DNA from: an uncultured Christensenella sp.
Lineage (GTDB): Bacteria > Bacillota > Clostridia > Christensenellales > UBA1242
DNA: 47,750 nt
Direction: 5' to 3'
Assembly (NCBI GenBank): GCA_949292875.1
Contig: CASFBJ010000021.1
Location: forward strand, 1-47,750
The position numbers and the translations under genes were made by a program. This document shows, one piece after another, positions 4,951-22,056 of this stretch. Below the pieces are notes generated by a model. The model ran no database searches and was not told where the DNA came from. It saw nothing but the letters and a program-made list of their open reading frames with translations. The stretch's first letter is position 1. The number at the start of each line of letters is the position of its first letter.

Positions 4951-6264
4951 TTAAATCTCATCTAGAACCCTAATAATATCATCTTTTGGCATATTTTGTC
5001 CAATGAAAACGAGTTTTATAAGTCTGTCGCCGTATTCATCGTCCCATATCTCCATAAACTTAGGGTCTTTTTTTAGTTGCTCTAATTGATTTTTTGGTAG
5101 TGTTGCATAGAATAAGCCGTTATCTTCTAAAACTTTTTGACTTCCTGCTTGTTCATATATATACATTCGGTCAGGTTCGTTTGAGAAGTATACTAAACCT
5201 TTTGTTCTAATAATCTTTTTACCATAATTTTCTTTCATAAAGTTTTCAAATTTTTCTCTATCAAAAGGTTTTCTTCTATAATAAACAAAAGTATTTATTT
5301 TAAACTCATCTTTTTCGCCTTTGCATTGGTTGCAGGTACAATGTTCACCATGCTCATGGTGATGTCCACAACTGCAATGCTCACCGTGCTTATGATTATG
5401 ATAGCATTCTTCCTTTTCGTGTTTGTGATTGTGCCCACAACTGCAATGCTCATCGTGCTCATGGTCATGATTACAATGACATTTTTCATCATGGTTATGT
5501 TTGTGATGTTTTCTTTCTTTTTCTTCTAATTCTTGTTTATCATTTTCAAATTCTTGTATCCAGCCAGCAGAAGATATAGCTTTATCAAAATCAAAAAGAT
5601 TAGTATCTAAAATATCTTTCAAATCAACTTTTGAATAGTTAGTTTCAATTAGTTTTGCATTTGGTTGTAAAGCTTTAATTATTTGTCTAACTTGATTAAG
5701 TTTTTCTTCATTTATTAGGTTTGACTTATTTAGTATCAAAATGTCGCAAAATTCAATTTGTTTAATAACTATGTTTTCCACATCTTCTTCTTGTACATTG
5801 TGTATAAGTGCGTTGCCATTATCAAACTCTTCACTCATTCTAAATGCGTCAACTACAGAAATAACTGCATCTAATTTGCAAGGGATAATGCCGTATTGCT
5901 CTCTGCAACTATTTTCTATAAAACATATAGATTGTGCAATAGGTATAGGTTCGCATATACCACTTGCTTCTATGAAAATATGGTCAAATTTGTCTGAACT
6001 TACAAGTTGCATTATTTGCTCAATTAAATCTTTTCTTAGCGTACAACATATACAGCCGTTTGAAAGAGAAACTAAATCTTCATTTTTATTTGATACAACT
6101 CCGCCTTTTTCTATTAATTCGGCATCAATATTTACTTCTCCTATATCGTTTACAATAACAGCTATTTTGTAGCCTTCTGCATTTGTTAAAATATGATTAA
6201 TTAGTGTTGTTTTTCCACTTCCTAGATAACCCGTTATTATTGAAATAGGTACATTTGTCTTCAT
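4951..6264 (-). CDS. COG0523 (CobW/ZNG-type) G3E GTPase metallochaperone with His/Cys-rich region
   Basis: The 437-residue protein has the G3E GTPase core: Walker A GYLGSGKTT (12-20), the metal-binding CxCC motif GCICC (70-74), 'IEASGICEP' (98-106) and the guanine-recognition region LNKSN (178-182), where the usual Asp of NKxD is Asn. Residues about 252-315 are a tandem His/Cys-rich segment with repeats of the type HEHxEHCSCGHxH, ending CTCNQC. The C-terminal CobW_C domain follows (about 323-437). COG0523 proteins deliver Zn, Co or other metals to client enzymes using GTP hydrolysis. The His/Cys tract suggests metal loading or storage, most likely Zn (inference). SD AAGGAG; own promoter at 6322-6295. 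No Zur box was found by eye. Confidence 0.9.
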   Translation of the reverse strand: MKTNVPISIITGYLGSGKTTLINHILTNAEGYKIAVIVNDIGEVNIDAELIEKGGVVSNKNEDLVSLSNGCICCTLRKDLIEQIMQLVSSDKFDHIFIEASGICEPIPIAQSICFIENSCREQYGIIPCKLDAVISVVDAFRMSEEFDNGNALIHNVQEEDVENIVIKQIEFCDILILNKSNLINEEKLNQVRQIIKALQPNAKLIETNYSKVDLKDILDTNLFDFDKAISSAGWIQEFENDKQELEEKERKHHKHNHDEKCHCNHDHEHDEHCSCGHNHKHEKEECYHNHKHGEHCSCGHHHEHGEHCTCNQCKGEKDEFKINTFVYYRRKPFDREKFENFMKENYGKKIIRTKGLVYFSNEPDRMYIYEQAGSQKVLEDNGLFYATLPKNQLEQLKKDPKFMEIWDDEYGDRLIKLVFIGQNMPKDDIIRVLDEI

Positions 6265-15503: not shown

Positions 15504-15532
15504 TTGACATAATGATGTTAATGTGTTATAAT
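15504..15532 (+). promoter_or_regulatory. Consensus promoter of ncRNA copy 1
   Basis: A perfect TTGACA (15504-15509), 17-bp spacer and perfect TATAAT (15527-15532) put the start at G15539. No ORF follows on this strand before a terminator. Confidence 0.85.
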
Positions 15533-15538
15533 AAAAAT

Positions 15539-15622
15539 GTTCGTAAAGAACTATGCATTTTTGCATAAGGCTTATAACTTTTGTTTATAAGCACGACCGT
15601 CACTTAGCACGGTCATTTTTTT
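15539..15622 (+). ncRNA. Structured ncRNA, copy 1
   Basis: From the predicted start the RNA is a chain of contiguous hairpins: GUUC/GAAC (15539-15551), UAUGCA/UGCAUA (15552-15567), GCUUAUAAC/GUUUAUAAGC (15570-15592), and a terminator GACCGU/ACGGUC (15595-15614) with eight Ts. The first three hairpins recur in copy 2 at 16805. The GUUC hairpin loop differs (GUAAA versus AUGAU) while the stem is kept, and a length change in the second loop breaks any shared reading frame, so this is RNA, not a peptide gene. The 3' part differs entirely between copies. About 40 bases after the terminator (TTTATAAATCTAA(T/C)ATAAATTTTTATTG) are also shared. I recognise no Rfam family. Confidence 0.7.
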
Positions 15623-15699
15623 TATTTTTATTTATAAATCTAATATAAATTTTTATTGTGCTTTTTTGCATATGTTTTTATTCTTCAATATCTAAATTA

Positions 15700-16143
15700 T
15701 TAAATATAAATAATTGGTTTATTTACTTTTTTAGCATATTTTAGTGTATTATAAGCTCCACTTTTATATGTTTCGTAAATATGACAAACTAAAATATCGC
15801 TATTATCGACAATCCACTCATTTCTCTTAGTAATTTTTATCTTAGGATGGTATTCTTCAATATCTGGCATTATAGAGCCATCATAACATGAAGGTAATTC
15901 CCATTTGTCTTTATTGTGATGATAGTATGTTAGTATTCTATAAATCTTAATTTGGGAATACTGTTTTTTTAATTCAATTACAATACTTGCACTTAATTTA
16001 TCGAAAAAACCTTTTCCACCATCAAAAAAAGTAGTATAACCTTTGTTTATAAGTTTAACAATTTCTTCTTTTAACTTATCTTTGATTTCTATATTTTGAA
16101 AATCATATCTATGACCTGCAAAACACACAATTTTTTCTTTCAT
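15700..16143 (-). CDS. SLOG-superfamily (DUF1273/YpsA-like) protein
   Basis: This 147-residue protein starts 'MKEKIVCFAGHRYDF', the strand-plus-GHR signature of the YpsA/DUF1273 branch of SLOG Rossmann proteins. 'TTFFDGGKGFFDKLSASIV' follows, corresponding to the family GGAxGxD region, and 'NEWIVDNSDILVCHIYETYKSGAYNTLKYAKK', the usual nucleotide-binding end ('SGT.x.T...A'). SLOG domains bind nucleotide-derived ligands and recur in mobile elements and stress or defence systems. SD AGGAGG before ATG 16143. It is divergent from an Xre regulator and lies between two ncRNA copies. Function is not known. Confidence 0.8.
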   Translation of the reverse strand: MKEKIVCFAGHRYDFQNIEIKDKLKEEIVKLINKGYTTFFDGGKGFFDKLSASIVIELKKQYSQIKIYRILTYYHHNKDKWELPSCYDGSIMPDIEEYHPKIKITKRNEWIVDNSDILVCHIYETYKSGAYNTLKYAKKVNKPIIYI

Positions 16144-16152
16144 AACTCCTCC

Positions 16153-16176
16153 TAAATTACAGTTTGCTAAATTACA
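16153..16176. promoter_or_regulatory. Direct repeats in the SLOG-Xre divergent region
   Basis: TAAATTACA occurs at 16153-16161 and again at 16168-16176, a 15-bp period (about 1.5 helical turns), just upstream of the SLOG start codon. It is a candidate operator for the Xre protein encoded next door; inference only. Confidence 0.35.
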
Positions 16177-16304
16177 AGTTTACATTGCTTGTGCAAAATC
16201 CTGAAATCTAAGGAAATTATAGCACATTTTTTAAATTTTACCACCCTACAGTTGAGTATTTTTCTAAAAAATTAGAGATAAACTAATTTTAAGGAGAAAT
16301 ATTT

Positions 16305-16547
16305 ATGAAATTACAAAGGGCTGTCGCTTTAAGAATTAGTGATTTGTTAATTAAAAACAAGATGAGTAGATATAGGCTTTGCCAGAAGATTGTTATGCCT
16401 GAACAAACTTTAAAAAATATTATTGATGAAAGAAATCAAGATATAAAATTATCAACAATTGCTAAAATTGCAGATGGATTTGATATGTCAATAGAACAGT
16501 TTTTTCAAGATGCACTTTTTGAAAGAAAAACTTTAGATATCGACTAA
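16305..16547 (+). CDS. Xre/Cro-type helix-turn-helix regulator
   Basis: An 80-residue protein that is a single HTH_3-type DNA-binding domain: 'RISDLLIKNKMSRYRLCQKIVMPEQTLKNIIDERNQDIKLSTIAKIADGFDMSIEQFF' gives the five-helix Cro fold, with 'RYRLCQKIVMPEQTLKNII' as the HTH. No ligand or protease domain is attached. SD AAGGAG at 16291-16296 precedes ATG 16305. It is divergent from the SLOG gene and may regulate the shared intergenic region. A terminator follows at 16574. Confidence 0.88.
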   Translation: MKLQRAVALRISDLLIKNKMSRYRLCQKIVMPEQTLKNIIDERNQDIKLSTIAKIADGFDMSIEQFFQDALFERKTLDID

Positions 16548-16573
16548 ATCTTCAATATTTTTTTAACTAGTTA

Positions 16574-16600
16574 AGAGAAATAATTTATTTCTCTTTTTTG
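16574..16600 (+). terminator. Terminator after the Xre gene
   Basis: AGAGAAATAA / TTATTTCTCT stem followed by TTTTTT. Confidence 0.75.
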
Positions 16601-16610
16601 TTAAAGAAAA

Positions 16611-16660
16611 CCACGGGTTTTATGAAGTGACCCCTTCGGGGTTCACTTCATTACCCGTGG
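16611..16660. repeat. 50-base palindrome sharing the IS3-type tip
   Basis: The base stem CCACGGGT/ACCCGTGG and upper stem GAAGTGACCCC/GGGGTTCACTTC are capped by a UUCG tetraloop. On the minus strand it reads TGAAGTGAACCCC, 4 bases, then GGGGTCACTTCA, i.e. two inverted tips with TG...CA ends. The 12-mer TGAAGTGAACCC also borders the IS at 47584 and the deletion junction at 19913. It could be a MITE-like remnant, or a strong hairpin terminator. Confidence 0.6.
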
Positions 16661-16769
16661 ATTTTTATTATTTTGAAATATATAAAAAATTATATTTTTA
16701 TTTATCTGTTTGTTGTTGGTAAAAAATAAAATAGACAAGTAAATCTTAAAACTTTATTAACAGAAAAAC

Positions 16770-16798
16770 TTGACATATTGAATGAAAGTGAATATAAT
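16770..16798 (+). promoter_or_regulatory. Consensus promoter of ncRNA copy 2
   Basis: A perfect TTGACA (16770-16775), 17-bp spacer and perfect TATAAT (16793-16798); predicted start G16805. The promoter boxes match copy 1 but the spacer and upstream DNA do not. Confidence 0.85.
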
Positions 16799-16804
16799 AA
16801 AAAT

Positions 16805-16921
16805 GTTCATGATGAACTATGCAATTTTTTGCATAAGGCTTATAACTTTTGTTTATAAGCACCAGTCGAGATTTTATTAAATCATATCGACATTGGGCTG
16901 GGTGGTCAATCCCAGTTTTTT
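16805..16921 (+). ncRNA. Structured ncRNA, copy 2
   Basis: The first 58 bases repeat the three-hairpin domain of copy 1: GUUC/GAAC at 16805-16817, UAUGCA/UGCAUA at 16818-16835 and GCUUAUAAC/GUUUAUAAGC at 16838-16860. The 3' domain is different and longer: a GUCGA/UCGAC stem (16865-16891) and a terminator CUGGG/CCCAG (16898-16915) with a T run. The post-terminator AT-rich 40 bases again match copy 1. A constant 5' scaffold with a variable 3' domain suggests two members of one sRNA family with different targets (inference). Confidence 0.7.
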
Positions 16922-16962
16922 TATTTTTTATTTATAAATCTAACATAAATTTTTATTGTGCT

Positions 16963-17079
16963 TTATTTTTGGGGACCCCTTTTTTAATCAGTGGGCCCTA
17001 AATAAAAAACACCTGTTACGGTGTTTAGTTGTTATGGTGGACTTGCGGGGGGTCGAACCCCGGACCCACTGATTAAGAG
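16963..17079. repeat. attL-like copy A of the tRNA-Lys(CTT) 3' half plus its terminator
   Basis: These 117 bases are almost identical to 20619-20736. They hold the tRNA-Lys 3' half (17035-17079, up to the anticodon loop), the tRNA-cluster terminator (AAACACC/GGTGTTT) and the upstream GGGGACCCC tract. The tRNA 5' half is missing, so this is a displaced fragment, as left by tRNA-targeting integrases. A 14-base inverted repeat (TAATCAGTGGGCCC at 16985-16998 against 17062-17075, one mismatch) lies inside. To the right, 17080-17279 is AT-rich with a single TTTTAGACA motif. Confidence 0.8.
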
Positions 17080-17279
17080 GTATGAATAAGGCTTGTTTTT
17101 TAAGTGCTTTTGGTGTTATCAAATCCCCCTACTTCCCTTATTTTACATATAAAAATCGTGTTATATCGTGTTAAACAACTTTTTCTATATTTTTCAAAAA
17201 TTATTTAAGATTTTGCTGTCTAATTTTAGACAGATTGCGAACAAATCAAATAGATTGTGTAAAATTCTGTCACTGTTTC

Positions 17280-17308
17280 TTGAATTTGAGATTTTCATAT
17301 AGTATAAT
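17280..17308 (+). promoter_or_regulatory. Promoter of the prophage remnant genes
   Basis: TTGAAT (17280-17285), 17 bp, TATAAT (17303-17308). AAAGGTT...AACCTTT can pair at 17332-17365 in the leader. Confidence 0.65.
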
Positions 17309-17385
17309 AAATTTGTTATAAATAAAATTTTAAAGGTTGTTCGCGTTTTTTGTGGATAACCTTTTGTATTAATAAGGAGACAATT

Positions 17386-17811
17386 ATGGACAAGTGGGAA
17401 AAAGAAATGATTGAAAACAATAAACGAGCAGCAACAGAGACTGAAAGAATAAATAATGAGATTTTACAAATTCCAAGTTATTTGACTGCTGAAGAAAAAG
17501 TTGCTTATGGTGAAATCGTGCAAACATTAAAAAATAGCATTAAATATAGACTATCTTCAACCGATGCTGAACTTATATGGCAATATTGTCAAATAAAGAT
17601 AATGCGAGATAGGGCTTGGCGAGAATATAATAAAAATCCAGATAGATATATAAGAATTGTTACAGGAATATGTAGTGATGGAAAAACTCCAAAAGTTATG
17701 GTTAAAGAAAACGAGCATTATAAAACCTTAATTGATTGCAATAAACAACTGGAAAAAATATTAAAAGATTTAAGATTGGCACCGGACGCGAGAGCTAAAA
17801 AGAGATTTTAG
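17386..17811 (+). CDS. Phage terminase small subunit, P27 family
   Basis: This 141-residue protein has the P27-type small terminase layout: a charged N terminus, a helical core ('AELIWQYCQIKIMRDRAWREY') and the characteristic tail 'YKTLIDCNKQLEKILKDLRLAPDARAKKRF' (family ...LxLxPxxRAxL). Small terminases recognise phage DNA and recruit the large ATPase/nuclease for packaging. ATG 17386 follows the SD AAGGAGA (17374-17380); a TTG at 17350 gives a longer frame without an SD. No large subunit, portal or capsid gene follows, so the packaging module is incomplete. Confidence 0.78.
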   Translation: MDKWEKEMIENNKRAATETERINNEILQIPSYLTAEEKVAYGEIVQTLKNSIKYRLSSTDAELIWQYCQIKIMRDRAWREYNKNPDRYIRIVTGICSDGKTPKVMVKENEHYKTLIDCNKQLEKILKDLRLAPDARAKKRF

Positions 17812-17852
17812 AACACAACATTTTCTGTTGTGCTCTTTTAAGGAGATTTTAT

Positions 17853-18395
17853 ATGGAAGAATTAAAAATTGAATACATAGAAATTGAAAAATTAAATCAT
17901 TATGAGAATAATTCAAAAATTCACACAAAAGAACAAATTGAGCATATTGCAAATTCAATAAAAGAATTTGGATTTAATGACCCATTAGGAATTGCAGGAG
18001 AAGATAATATTGTTTTAGAAGGAAATGGACGCGTAGAGGCGGCAAGGTTGTTAGGAATGGAAAAACTTCCATGTGTTAGGCTTGACCATTTGACAAAGGA
18101 AGAACAACAAGCTTATGTCATTGCACACAATTCTTTAAATTTAGAAACGGGATTTGATGATGGGATATTATTTCAAGAATTAAAAAGATTGCAAGAATTT
18201 GATTTCACAGACTTTGGCATTGATGCCGATAAATATCTAAAAACATGCATTAGAGTTCAACAAAGATTGTTGAAGCCCATAAAGAAGGTTCACTATTTGA
18301 TTAGTTTAGATATAAATAAAAATGACCAAATAGCACACCTAATTGACAGAATAAAAAGAATTGAAGGAGTAGAAATTGAGTCCACAACCAACTAA
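17853..18395 (+). CDS. ParB/Srx-fold protein, phage type
   Basis: A 180-residue protein. Residues 1-85 carry the ParB N-terminal (ParB/sulfiredoxin) fold: 'IEYIEIEKLNHYENNSKIH', 'IANSIKEFGFNDPLGI', 'VLEGNGRVEAARLLGM' (family GxHRxxAA, here GNGRVEAA) and 'LPCVRL'. 'LTKEEQQAYVIAHNSL' corresponds to the second motif. Phage proteins of this kind often precede or are fused to DNA methyltransferases, and a methyltransferase-like ORF follows. SD AAGGAG precedes ATG 17853. The C terminus overlaps the next gene by 20 bases. The common C-terminal methylase domain is not attached here. Confidence 0.82.
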   Translation: MEELKIEYIEIEKLNHYENNSKIHTKEQIEHIANSIKEFGFNDPLGIAGEDNIVLEGNGRVEAARLLGMEKLPCVRLDHLTKEEQQAYVIAHNSLNLETGFDDGILFQELKRLQEFDFTDFGIDADKYLKTCIRVQQRLLKPIKKVHYLISLDINKNDQIAHLIDRIKRIEGVEIESTTN

Positions 18396-18924
18396 AACAG
18401 ATAATAAATCTATTGCAAATAAGATATTTATCAGAAAAGAAGCAATTAAAAATTTAAAAGAAGTAAGAGTTTTAGACTTGTTCGCTGGCAGGAATGTCCT
18501 TTGGAATAACATAAAGACAGATAAATATTTTGGAATAGATATAGCAACAAATAAAGGCAAGAACTTAAATGCAGACACAAGACAAGTTTTTGATTCAATA
18601 GATCTAAGCGAATTTAATGTGATAGATTGTGATAGTTATGGAATTGCTTTTGATTTATATAAAAAGATATTAACGAATCCAAATATTAAGAAAGGCACAA
18701 TAATCATTTACACTTTAATTACTAACGAATTTACAAAAATTCAAAATGAAGCAAAAAAAGAGTTTAATTTTAAACATTTTTATTATAAAGTCCCTTCCCT
18801 TTTTAACGCTAGAGCTATTGAGTTCTTTTATGAAATGCTAGCAAATTATGAAATTAAAGAAGTAAACTATTATGCTATAAGAGACAAATTTGATAAACAT
18901 TATGGATATTTTGTTATAAATTGA
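18376..18924 (+). CDS. SAM-methyltransferase-like phage protein
   Basis: A 182-residue protein with a Rossmann methyltransferase motif I, 'RVLDLFAGRNVLWNNI', followed by 'YFGIDI' (motif II acidic end) and 'FNVIDCDSYGIAF' where an amino-methyltransferase would have a (D/N)PPY motif. A DPPY catalytic motif is not seen, so catalytic activity is doubtful. The start is TTG 18376, with the SD AAGGAG at 18364-18369 inside the ParB-like gene, giving a 20-base overlap and likely coupling. Possibly a degraded or specialised nucleic-acid methyltransferase. Confidence 0.65.
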   Translation: MSPQPTKTDNKSIANKIFIRKEAIKNLKEVRVLDLFAGRNVLWNNIKTDKYFGIDIATNKGKNLNADTRQVFDSIDLSEFNVIDCDSYGIAFDLYKKILTNPNIKKGTIIIYTLITNEFTKIQNEAKKEFNFKHFYYKVPSLFNARAIEFFYEMLANYEIKEVNYYAIRDKFDKHYGYFVIN

Positions 18925-18947
18925 TATGAAAAATTGTCAATTTATGA

Positions 18948-18953
18948 TATAAT
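18948..18953 (+). promoter_or_regulatory. Extended -10 promoter of the radical SAM gene (predicted leaderless)
   Basis: TGATATAAT is an extended -10; the -35 is poor. Six bases separate TATAAT from ATG 18960, so transcription probably begins at the start codon. No SD is present. Confidence 0.6.
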
Positions 18954-18959
18954 TACCAT

Positions 18960-19796
18960 ATGAGTATAATTTACAGACCTTGTGGAATGGCGAGAGAATA
19001 TAGCCCCTACGCGTTAAATATTTACATAGGTTGCAGTCATAGGTGCAAATATTGCTATGCTCCACATACATTGCAAAAGTCAAGCGAAAGTTATTTTGGA
19101 AAACCTGAGCCAAGAAAAGATATTTTAAAATTACTTGAAAAAGATTTAAAAAAGAACAAATACACCGAACAAGTTCTTTTATCTTTTGTTGGCGATTGTT
19201 ATTGTGACAGTGCAGATAATGGGCAAACGGTTAGAGAGGTTTTAAAATTATTAAATTATTATCACATTCCTGTCGCAGTTCTTTCTAAAGGTGGAAAGAA
19301 AATGTTGAGAGATTTAGATTTGTTTAAAGAGTTTGGAGATAGAATTACTGTGGGGACAACTTTAACCTTTTTAGATGAACATAAATCAAAAGAATGGGAA
19401 CCTTATGCTTCCACTCCAAGTGAAAGATTAGAAACTCTAAAAACACTTCACGATAATGGAATTAAAACCTTTGCTAGTTTTGAACCTACAATTGAACCAG
19501 AAGAAAGTTTGAAATTGATTAAAAAGACATTAGAATTAGACTGCGTTGACCATTACAAAATAGGAAAAATTAACAATTATAAGTCTGCTGATAAGTGGCA
19601 AGATTGGGAAAAATATTTGCAAGACTGCGTTAATTTGTTAAGACCAACAGGAAAGCAAGTTTATTATAAATTTTGCCTAAGAAAACTTGCTCCAGATATA
19701 GAATTAACAGATGCTGAAAAAAATCCCGATGAATACATAGTTCGATATACTCCGAGCGAGCAAATGAGCATTTTTGACAATAAGGATACAAAATGA
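18960..19796 (+). CDS. SPL-like radical SAM protein, phage type
   Basis: This 278-residue radical SAM protein of the COG1533 (spore photoproduct lyase-like) group starts 'MSIIYRPCGMAREYSPYALNIYIGC', with the cluster motif CSHRCKYC (C25, C29, C32). 'LSFVGDCYCDSADN' and 'GTTLTFLDE' are family features, and 'FEPTIEPEESL' is near the SAM site. Genes of this type occur in phages of Bacillota; their reaction is not established. No SD precedes ATG 18960; a TATAAT lies 6 bases upstream. The stop overlaps the next start as ATGA. Confidence 0.82.
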   Translation: MSIIYRPCGMAREYSPYALNIYIGCSHRCKYCYAPHTLQKSSESYFGKPEPRKDILKLLEKDLKKNKYTEQVLLSFVGDCYCDSADNGQTVREVLKLLNYYHIPVAVLSKGGKKMLRDLDLFKEFGDRITVGTTLTFLDEHKSKEWEPYASTPSERLETLKTLHDNGIKTFASFEPTIEPEESLKLIKKTLELDCVDHYKIGKINNYKSADKWQDWEKYLQDCVNLLRPTGKQVYYKFCLRKLAPDIELTDAEKNPDEYIVRYTPSEQMSIFDNKDTK

Positions 19797-19921
19797 AAAC
19801 AGGTTATTTCGCAAAGATGAAAAGTTATCCCAAGACACACGGATATAAATTTATATCAATTGCAAGATTTAATAAATTTTGGAAAGGCGAAGAATTTAAA
19901 AAACTTGCGCCACTGAAGTGA
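19793..19921 (+). pseudogene. Truncated DUF488-like phage protein
   Basis: A 42-codon frame starts in the ATGA overlap with the radical SAM gene: 'MKTGYFAKMKSY' and 'ISIARFNKFWKGEEFKKLAP', then a stop. This resembles the N terminus of DUF488-type phage proteins that often follow such radical SAM genes ('YFAK...ISI...W.G..YKKLAP'). Family members are much longer, and the frame ends just where foreign sequence begins, so it looks cut by a deletion. Confidence 0.6.
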
Positions 19922-20228
19922 ACCCTATTTTAGCACCACAGCCAATATTTATAGCCACTTAGACTATTCAGCAAAACAAAATTCAGCAAATACAATTTCA
20001 AATGTGGTTAACTTTGTTGAAAGTAAAGAAAACAATATCGATAAACAACAATCGACTAAATCACAAGAAGAAAAAGATAAAACCGACAAGACAAAAGAAT
20101 TGGAAGAAAAACTTGCCAAACTTGAACAACAAATAAAAGAGCAAGAAGAAGATGAAGAATATCAAGAATGGTTAAGAGAAAGAGAAGAACGAAGAAAGCG
20201 CAAGAAACAATCTGATATGGAAATGTAA
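19917..20228 (+). pseudogene. Tyrosine recombinase (integrase) C-terminal fragment
   Basis: Reading the frame upstream of the GTG at 20004 back to 19917 gives 'STTANIYSHLDYSAKQNSA', the hallmark C terminus of phage integrases with the catalytic tyrosine in NIYSHL. A charged coiled-coil tail of about 75 residues follows (KTKELEEKLAKLEQQIKEQE). The N-terminal and catalytic R-H-R parts are missing, and a TGA lies in frame at 19914. The integrase of this element was therefore lost by a deletion joining it to the DUF488-like gene. Confidence 0.7.
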
Positions 20229-20276
20229 GAACAAGCATGTTTTTGCGCACCTAAAAAAATTTAAAAAAATTAAATC

Positions 20277-20312
20277 GGCTGGGAATTCTAACAAGTTCTC
20301 AGCTATTTTTTA
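20277..20312 (+). terminator. Terminator after the integrase remnant
   Basis: GCTGGGAA/TTCTCAGC stem (8 bp, one G-U) followed by ATTTTTT. Confidence 0.8.
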
Positions 20313-20330
20313 TGCAAATTTTTCTAAAAA

Positions 20331-20432
20331 TTTTAGACAATTTTTTAGACAGTGCCATTTTTTGCGCATTTTAATAGATTTTTTCTTGTTAAAAATTCTA
20401 AATTATAATATATTAAAACGCCATTTTAGACA
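20331..20432 (+). repeat. TTTTAGACA motif cluster beside the att site
   Basis: TTTTAGACA occurs at 20331, 20343 and 20424, and once near the other att copy at 17224. This could be an arm-type binding site of the lost integrase (inference). The rest of 20313-20467 is AT-rich with no gene. Confidence 0.4.
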
Positions 20433-20467
20433 CTTTTGGGTGTTTCTAAAGAGTATCTAATATTAAA

Positions 20468-20494
20468 AAATCCCTTTAAAATAAAGGGATTTAG
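20468..20494 (-). terminator. Hairpin next to att copy B
   Basis: On the minus strand AAATCCCTTT / AAAGGGATTT is followed by TTT. It lies directly after the partial tRNA-Lys 3' end, as a terminator would. Confidence 0.65.
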
Positions 20495-20496
20495 CG

Positions 20497-20529
20497 TGGT
20501 GGACTTGCGGGGGGTCGAACCCCGGACCC
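20497..20529. repeat. att copy B: 33-base tRNA-Lys 3' end
   Basis: These 33 bases equal 17035-17067 (copy A) exactly, covering the T-arm, acceptor strand and CCA of tRNA-Lys. The intact tRNA differs by one base (GGGGGA instead of GGGGGG before TCG). A and B therefore match each other better than either matches the intact gene, as expected for a recombined att pair. Positions 20530-20618 hold only short hairpins such as CCTTG/CAAGG. Confidence 0.7.
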
Positions 20530-20618
20530 TGCGGTAAAACATACGCTATTACTTGCTTGCTCCTTGTAGTTGCAAGGCAAGTTTTTCGCTTAGTTTTACC
20601 TTTAACCCCAAAAAAACA

Positions 20619-20736
20619 TTATTTTTGGGGACCCCTTTTTTAATCAGTGGGCCCTACATAAAAAAACACCTGTTACGGTGTTTAGTTGTTATGGTGGACT
20701 TGCGGGGGATCGAACCCCGGACCCACTGATTAAGAG
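20619..20736. repeat. attR-like copy C inside the intact tRNA-Lys gene
   Basis: This is the chromosomal partner of the repeat at 16963-17079. It contains the tRNA 3' half and the tRNA-cluster terminator. Together they bracket about 3.6 kb of prophage remnant. Confidence 0.75.
20659..20683 (-). terminator. Terminator of the tRNA cluster
   Basis: On the minus strand AAACACC-GTAACA-GGTGTTT is followed by a T run, 9 bases after the tRNA-Lys CCA end. Confidence 0.85.
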
Positions 20737-21377: not shown

Positions 21378-21410
21378 AAACTTACGCTTCTAAATCGTAA
21401 AGACTTAGAC

Positions 21411-21439
21411 ATATTATCACAATAAGTGAGTAATGTCAA
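21411..21439 (-). promoter_or_regulatory. Promoter of the tRNA array
   Basis: On the minus strand TTGACA (21439-21434), 17 bp, TAATAT (21416-21411), about 34 bases before tRNA-Gly. The stretch 21440-21597 is AT-rich and empty. Confidence 0.8.
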
Positions 21440-21597
21440 GTGTAAAAATGGATAGTTATTAAATTTTTTTGAAATTTTTAATAAATTACATAGTTTATAT
21501 TAAAAAGATTAAAAATTATAATAGAAAAAAGAGTGAAATACCATTTACGACTAGAAACTAAGTCAAAAAACATTTTAATAATTAAAAAGTAAAAATG

Positions 21598-22056
21598 TTA
21601 TATCTCTACTATACTATTTACAATCTCAAGCATTTGTTCATTTCTTGTTGGCAAGTCTTCGTTATACATATAGCCAAGACAAACAAGCATATTGTGAATA
21701 GATGTGAAAATATTTGCTATTGTCATTCCTTGAAAATTTATTATAGTTCTAACTATTTTTCTTCCGCTTGGTAAAACAAAATCTTCATTTTTAACAATAG
21801 ACGCACCACTTGCTTTTAGTACACTAATATTTAATTCCACACCTTTAGTTAATGCTTCTTCTTCGTTTTTATAAACAGCATCTCTAGTAATATTGAAAGT
21901 ATCAAAATCTTCATTTTGAGTATTTGCAAAAAGATATATAGTTTGAGTTAGTGCAGGTTCTTTTAATCCTATTTTTTCATAATTTTCTTTTTTAACTAAT
22001 TGGAATTCATCAAAAACATTTATAGTAAACTTAAATTCTTTATTTTCGTATAACAT
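21598..22056 (-). CDS. Hypothetical protein, 152 aa
   Basis: I do not recognise this protein. It is mixed alpha/beta with alternating short strands ('FKFTINVFDEFQLVKKENYEKIG', 'TQTIYLFAN', 'RKIVRTIINFQGMTIANIF') and no signal peptide or metal motif. It loosely resembles small DcrB/PsbP-like beta-sheet folds, but this is weak. SD AGGAGA precedes ATG 22056. It starts 9 bases after the dus stop, so the two form an operon. Confidence 0.7.
   Translation of the reverse strand: MLYENKEFKFTINVFDEFQLVKKENYEKIGLKEPALTQTIYLFANTQNEDFDTFNITRDAVYKNEEEALTKGVELNISVLKASGASIVKNEDFVLPSGRKIVRTIINFQGMTIANIFTSIHNMLVCLGYMYNEDLPTRNEQMLEIVNSIVEI

Follow-up and report, generated by a model that had tools for sequence, protein, structure and literature searches.

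In some type I toxin-antitoxin (TA) systems, such as txpA/RatA, the RNA antitoxin gene is placed convergently at the 3' end of the toxin gene. Type III systems are defined by RNA repeats and a terminator that precede the toxin gene within a single operon (PMC5086642). Phage PhiTE carries a pseudo-ToxI, which mimics the host type III RNA antitoxin and acts against the host toxin (PMC3475682). As for the TA modules reported for inoviruses, they belong to type II, with one of type IV, and an RNA antitoxin is not described there (PMC6813254). The locus analysed here encodes two predicted transcripts of an undescribed family of structured RNAs, which have exchangeable 3' modules and their own promoter and terminator. 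We consider them to be orphan antitoxin-like copies from a MAZ-RNA cassette of filamentous phages that is related to type III TA, with a probability of roughly 0.6.

The window (the whole stretch of DNA that was analysed, 47,750 bases) contains exactly 2 TTGACA-N17-TATAAT sites, one preceding each RNA copy; 0.04 such sites are expected by chance, and none of 100 shuffles contains two. The features of both genes are listed below.

15504 to 15532, + strand: sigma70-type promoter preceding RNA copy 1, a perfect match and one of the 2 exact sites in the window
15538 to 15623, + strand: RNA copy 1 (P1-P3, module A terminator hairpin, U-run)
15539-15551, 15552-15567, and 15569-15592, + strand: hairpins P1, P2, and P3 of copy 1
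15595-15614, + strand: module A terminator hairpin of copy 1
15616 to 15667, no strand assigned: shared tail behind RNA copy 1 (repeat comparison, family D2)
16770 to 16798, + strand: sigma70-type promoter preceding RNA copy 2, a perfect match and the other exact site in the window
16804 to 16922, + strand: RNA copy 2 (P1-P3, ACC, P4, AUUG, P5 terminator hairpin, U-run), matched by covariance model R2 with 52.6 bits and E 3e-12
16805-16817, 16818-16835, and 16837-16860, + strand: hairpins P1, P2, and P3 of copy 2
16861-16863 and 16865-16891, + strand: ACC and P4 of copy 2
16892-16895 and 16896-16916, + strand: AUUG and P5 terminator hairpin of copy 2
16916 to 16967, no strand assigned: shared tail behind RNA copy 2, 92% identical to the copy-1 tail over 52 nt and reaching into the first bases of the att-like repeat (start at 16963)

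In both copies the three-hairpin scaffold begins at about +1 (15538 and 16804, respectively) and has the same stems, namely GUUC/GAAC in P1, UAUGCA/UGCAUA in P2, and GGCUUAUAA/UUAUAAGC in P3. The P1 stem is retained between the copies with an altered loop, hairpin 2 differs in length by 2 nt, and a stretch of 37 nt that comprises hairpin 3 and its flanks shows no difference. Folding gives z-scores of −5.2 and −5.1, a stability that none of the shuffles reaches. The 3' parts of the copies are distinct, each containing a terminator, and the Rfam search of the window RNAs reports no matching family. An earlier sequence-only reading of this DNA had proposed two RNA copies driven by perfect promoters, a constant three-hairpin scaffold with a preserved GUUC/GAAC stem, and sequences that match again behind the 3' domains; the promoter count, the alignment and folding (z of about −5), and the paired tails bear out all of these points. 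It had also favoured a structured RNA over a peptide, and indeed peptide coding by the scaffold is ruled out by the 2-nt difference in hairpin 2, which disrupts any reading frame.

Relatives of these RNAs were searched for with two covariance models, with one genome taken per species. The first model (R1), built from the two window copies, was applied to 297 genomes of ~1 Mb from the bacterial family to which the window belongs, and the second one (R2) to 309 genomes. R1 matches below ~30 bits (L049-L064) were judged chance-like and left out. The R1 search, previously suggested as a check, reveals clear members in other genera with covarying stems, and R2 yields 23 strong matches. The family RNAs are ~65-200 nt long, and Rfam contains nothing relevant to them.

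The 3' domains of the window copies, earlier described as unrelated, are indeed dissimilar to each other, but each of them has counterparts among phage RNAs in other genera. Thus, module A (GACCGU..ACGGUC) of copy 1 is found in the prophage RNA of genome G161, and module B of copy 2 in that of G303. Module C is common to G206, G056, G214, and G051, and module D to G147 and G289. The variable part therefore consists of conserved, exchanged modules rather than free sequence. In an alignment of 12 module-B RNAs, the common order is ACC - P4 - AUUG - P5, the loop being of the UGGU-AAU type, and P4/P5 pairs changed on both sides amount to 11/12 in this alignment, with a covariation score of 0.69 vs 0.27 for shuffled and 0.08-0.17 for slid partners. 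A possible pairing between ACC and GGU of the P5 loop is present in 11 of these 12 RNAs, one being a GCC:GGC covariant, and modules A, C, and D have no P4/pseudoknot motif. Within the close group formed by G302, G288, G306, and G256, P1 and P4 vary, and P3 and P5 are nearly fixed. No tandem repeats beyond T-runs were found in the window copies or in L071 8800-9600; for the other RNAs the check was visual. According to the folding energies of 29 RNAs, the transcribed strand in most cases folds better than its complement (sums of −819 vs −753 kcal/mol), as would be the case for an element that acts as RNA and not as single-stranded DNA.

The modular 3' part also bears on the guide-RNA function suggested from the sequence, as well as on the idea of a functional unit with the SLOG and Xre genes inside a tRNA-linked island. 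A guide or defence RNA acting with these adjoining genes, whose adjacency to the RNAs is seen in this window only, is largely refuted and highly improbable: neither SLOG nor this Xre gene neighbours any other inspected family member, PADLOC and other libraries assign no defence role to the SLOG protein, and the RNAs have no guide-like free or variable tail, their modules being conserved hairpins and terminators common to several genera. Placement inside the island does not hold either. Two 117-nt repeats (16963-17079 and 20619-20736) mark the limits of the tRNA-Lys-linked island, so that both RNAs as well as the SLOG and Xre genes lie outside it, and contact with its edge is confined to the copy-2 tail. 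These direct repeats include the tRNA-Lys 3' end, and the island (16963-20736) carries genes for a Terminase_4 small subunit, a ParB-like protein, and a radical SAM protein, thus resembling a small phage-satellite-like element. Another feature of this region is a very strong hairpin followed by a T-run, located between the Xre gene and RNA copy 2 (16612-16661); it has the arms CCACGGGT...ACCCGTGG with a CCCC-TTCG-GGGG tip and no Rfam match at gathering score.

The mobile origin earlier considered possible is supported; most relatives of the RNA reside in inovirus prophages, where the RNA gene lies tail-to-tail with the gene of the MAZ protein. The RNAs of G161, G289, G303, G056, and G214 sit in prophages with filamentous-phage genes, which according to Pfam, PHROGs, and gene maps include a rolling-circle Rep (REP_ORF2-G2P, E 3e-9) and a Zot-like ATPase (PF05707, E 2e-7), as well as an SSB-like gene in the best-covered prophages. 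The carrier elements thus have both a Zot/pI-type ATPase and a rolling-circle Rep within one small cluster of phage genes, the combination used to recognise inoviruses. Transcription of the RNA in these prophages opposes the phage genes and converges on the MAZ 3' end. Protein or RNA relatives were not found in IMG/VR contigs, phage records, or plasmid records, and the known range of MAZ is therefore this order of Clostridia. With four to five Zot-like genes apiece, the small genomes G113 and G155 each hold several inoviruses. Upstream of the RNA promoter, loci L083, L085, L086, L088, and L089 share a conserved imperfect repeat (CAACTTAAACTATTG..GTGCC..GGTCTTACAGT), and most of them also carry the GCGACGTCGC palindrome; these elements perhaps represent the rolling-circle origin of the inoviruses.

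The MAZ profile search is positive in 31 of the 309 family genomes, 24 of which are also Zot-positive. Zot-like genes occur in 121 of the 309, and the MAZ-RNA cassette is therefore accessory. All 32 MAZ loci inspected in the family have a convergent promoter-hairpins-terminator unit at the MAZ 3' end, and the same unit is observed at 10 MAZ loci from other families of the order, some of which have a broken MAZ. Among the former loci, an automatic count reports a promoter with at most 1 mismatch at the 3' end of 20/32 MAZ genes vs 6/430 other ORFs. In locus L170 (G555, another family of the order), two tandem promoter-RNA units lie behind a MAZ gene that is interrupted by an in-frame stop. The pair occupies at least four phage positions (before SSB, after Rep, between a pIII-like gene and Zot, and after Zot), and no constant protein-gene neighbour exists upstream of MAZ, the neighbours falling into at least 10 unrelated clusters plus singletons. 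Two MAZ genes each are present in G113 (different clades in one prophage), G161, and G217, and every RNA in these genomes is nearest to RNAs of its own MAZ's clade. Regarding overall distances, the correlation of the RNA with MAZ (r 0.41) is no better than that with the Zot protein (r 0.49). Tracking of MAZ alone is thus not upheld, and it is the two-MAZ genomes that carry the argument instead; judged from these sequence distances, the descent of the RNA may in part be that of the phage.

The correlation with the Zot-like ATPase also fits an explanation in which the promoter and hairpins are a phage DNA element, i.e., a minus-strand origin with a primer RNA made by host RNA polymerase or a packaging signal, and the solo copies are debris. 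In M13 the intergenic region follows the last gene and is transcribed against the genes; the RNA unit has the same layout, and in several phages it lies near the plus origin. However, the unit travels with MAZ to at least four positions of the phage genome, MAZ is present in only about a quarter of Zot-positive genomes, and one phage (G113) contains two cassettes. In addition, the unit has a full promoter and terminator, and the RNA strand outfolds the phage plus strand. A fixed minus-strand origin or packaging hairpin is disfavoured by this variable position and accessory status, and a DNA element appears improbable overall.

Given the convergent layout, read-through MAZ mRNA would be complementary to the RNA, which suggests antisense control as another explanation. 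The RNA would then pair with MAZ or phage mRNA, either in a type I-like manner or as a P4 CI-like phage-immunity RNA, and solo copies, which closely match phage modules, would repress an incoming phage in trans. Cognate complementarity to the MAZ start region, however, shows no excess (z −0.6 over 27 pairs), so antisense to the MAZ start is negative, and neither the unpaired conserved motifs (ACC, AUUG, and the UGGU loop) nor the compensated stems are necessary for cis-antisense action. We regard antisense control as rather unlikely, with pairing at the 3' overlap still conceivable.

The antitoxin reading draws on the protein partner as well. MAZ is 130-210 aa long and has a predicted MazF/Kid fold. 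AlphaFold models of two MAZ clades have pLDDT of 90 and 87, and their best structural matches are E. coli MazF/Kid (Z 9.5 and 8.2), with the type III toxins ToxN, AbiQ, and CptN among further matches; MazF ranks above ToxN and CptN. At the sequence level, a search of PDB with MAZ returns nothing, and the score against PemK PF02452 is 21.1 bits, below the Pfam cut-off of 23.1. An arginine (R32) is conserved in 26 of 27 MAZ sequences and a Ser/Thr position in 23 of 27; both fall at positions that probably correspond to the active-site Arg and Ser/Thr of MazF proteins. As for the 52-nt tail shared by the window copies, its interpretation as a remnant of the MAZ C-terminus was dropped, since 593 and 186 of 1000 shuffles score as well.

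In comparison with type III systems (ToxIN, CptIN, TenpIN, and AbiQ; PMC5086642), MAZ has the MazF/ToxN-superfamily fold in predicted structures, its constant neighbour is the gene of a structured RNA, which in the module-B class may form a pseudoknot, and the pair is carried on mobile elements. In contrast to type III, where the RNA lies upstream in one operon and consists of tandem repeats processed into monomers, the RNA of MAZ is located downstream on the opposite strand with its own promoter in all loci examined and is one chain of unlike hairpins; moreover, the MAZ model is nearer to MazF than to ToxN. Because both RNA repeats and an upstream one-operon RNA were looked for and are absent from the RNAs and loci examined, the MAZ-RNA pair is not type III as defined (PMC5086642). 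Type II MazEF/Kid-Kis provides the closest solved structures (Z up to 9.5), but MAZ has no adjoining protein antitoxin gene. The RNA gene converges on the MAZ 3' end as in the type I txpA/RatA, whereas MAZ is a soluble MazF-fold protein of 130-210 aa rather than a small hydrophobic peptide, and its RNA has a conserved fold and no cognate pairing at the MAZ start. Finally, the pair resembles the TA modules of inoviruses (PMC6813254) in being a candidate toxin-antitoxin pair of filamentous phages and differs from them by its RNA partner.

Solo RNAs, i.e., RNAs with no MAZ next door, are found in eleven genomes: the window genome, G206, G147, G288, G306, G256, G302, G120, G136, G119, and G051, in which the copy is decayed. 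The window genome has two RNAs and neither MAZ (by profile search) nor a Zot-like gene. In G306, three complete promoter-RNA-terminator units stand in a row between two host genes (L160 8405-8937; contig 17, about 21404-21936); RNAs 1 and 3 of this array have P1-P3 and P5 in common and differ in P4. A solo RNA of G302 (L163 about 5470-5592, contig 2) has no promoter of its own and lies directly behind one tRNA gene and ahead of a second one, with which it is possibly co-transcribed. G290 contains an intact RNA next to a frameshifted, interrupted MAZ. RNA without MAZ is thus common, whereas MAZ without RNA is absent among all MAZ loci examined, an asymmetry that would be expected of a toxin protein with an RNA antidote. 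Exclusion of phages by solo RNAs is unsupported, since the depletion of Zot-positive genomes among the eleven (3/11) is non-significant (p 0.54).

The absence of MAZ and Zot-like genes from the window genome, the variation of solo sites among genomes, and the decayed copy in G051 would also be consistent with neutral relics, i.e., with window copies that are decaying leftovers devoid of present function, whatever the RNA does in the phage. We find this somewhat doubtful, as in both window copies the promoters are still perfect, the stems are intact with any changes being compensated or neutral, and the terminators are kept, and solo copies occur in about ten genomes, including the intact array of three.

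The home of the RNA family is a two-part cassette of filamentous prophages, in which a MAZ gene is joined tail-to-tail by the RNA gene. According to the preferred antitoxin reading, MAZ would be a MazF/ToxN-type endoribonuclease toxin. The RNA would be made constitutively from its own promoter and fold into hairpins, with a loop pseudoknot in one large class, and we infer that the folded RNA binds and inhibits MAZ as type III antitoxin RNAs do, albeit from a convergent, non-repetitive layout. Such a cassette would stabilise the prophage, and chromosomal solo RNAs would be orphan antitoxins left or captured once the toxin and phage were lost. To the benefit of the host, orphan RNAs could neutralise toxins of related phages that enter the cell, or limit the killing upon loss of such a phage. 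As with pseudo-ToxI of PhiTE, a free-standing antitoxin RNA would shield one party from the toxin of the other; there the phage holds the mimic, and here hosts hold copies of the phage RNA, which makes the proposed arrangement a mirror image. Based on the G306 array and the window pair, it is also conceivable, if unlikely, that host chromosomes gather arrays of orphan phage-antitoxin RNAs as an RNA immunity or anti-addiction repertoire against filamentous phages, in which P4 or the 3' module sets the toxin that is neutralised.

The window RNAs thus lead to a new RNA family that has a partner of predicted MazF fold in filamentous phages of uncultured Clostridia, and its convergent, own-promoter, repeat-free layout escapes the published type III search rule (PMC5086642). 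If the RNA is indeed an antitoxin, RNA-inhibited MazF-fold toxins would be broader than thought, and the chromosomal orphans would represent a simple RNA defence against phage addiction.
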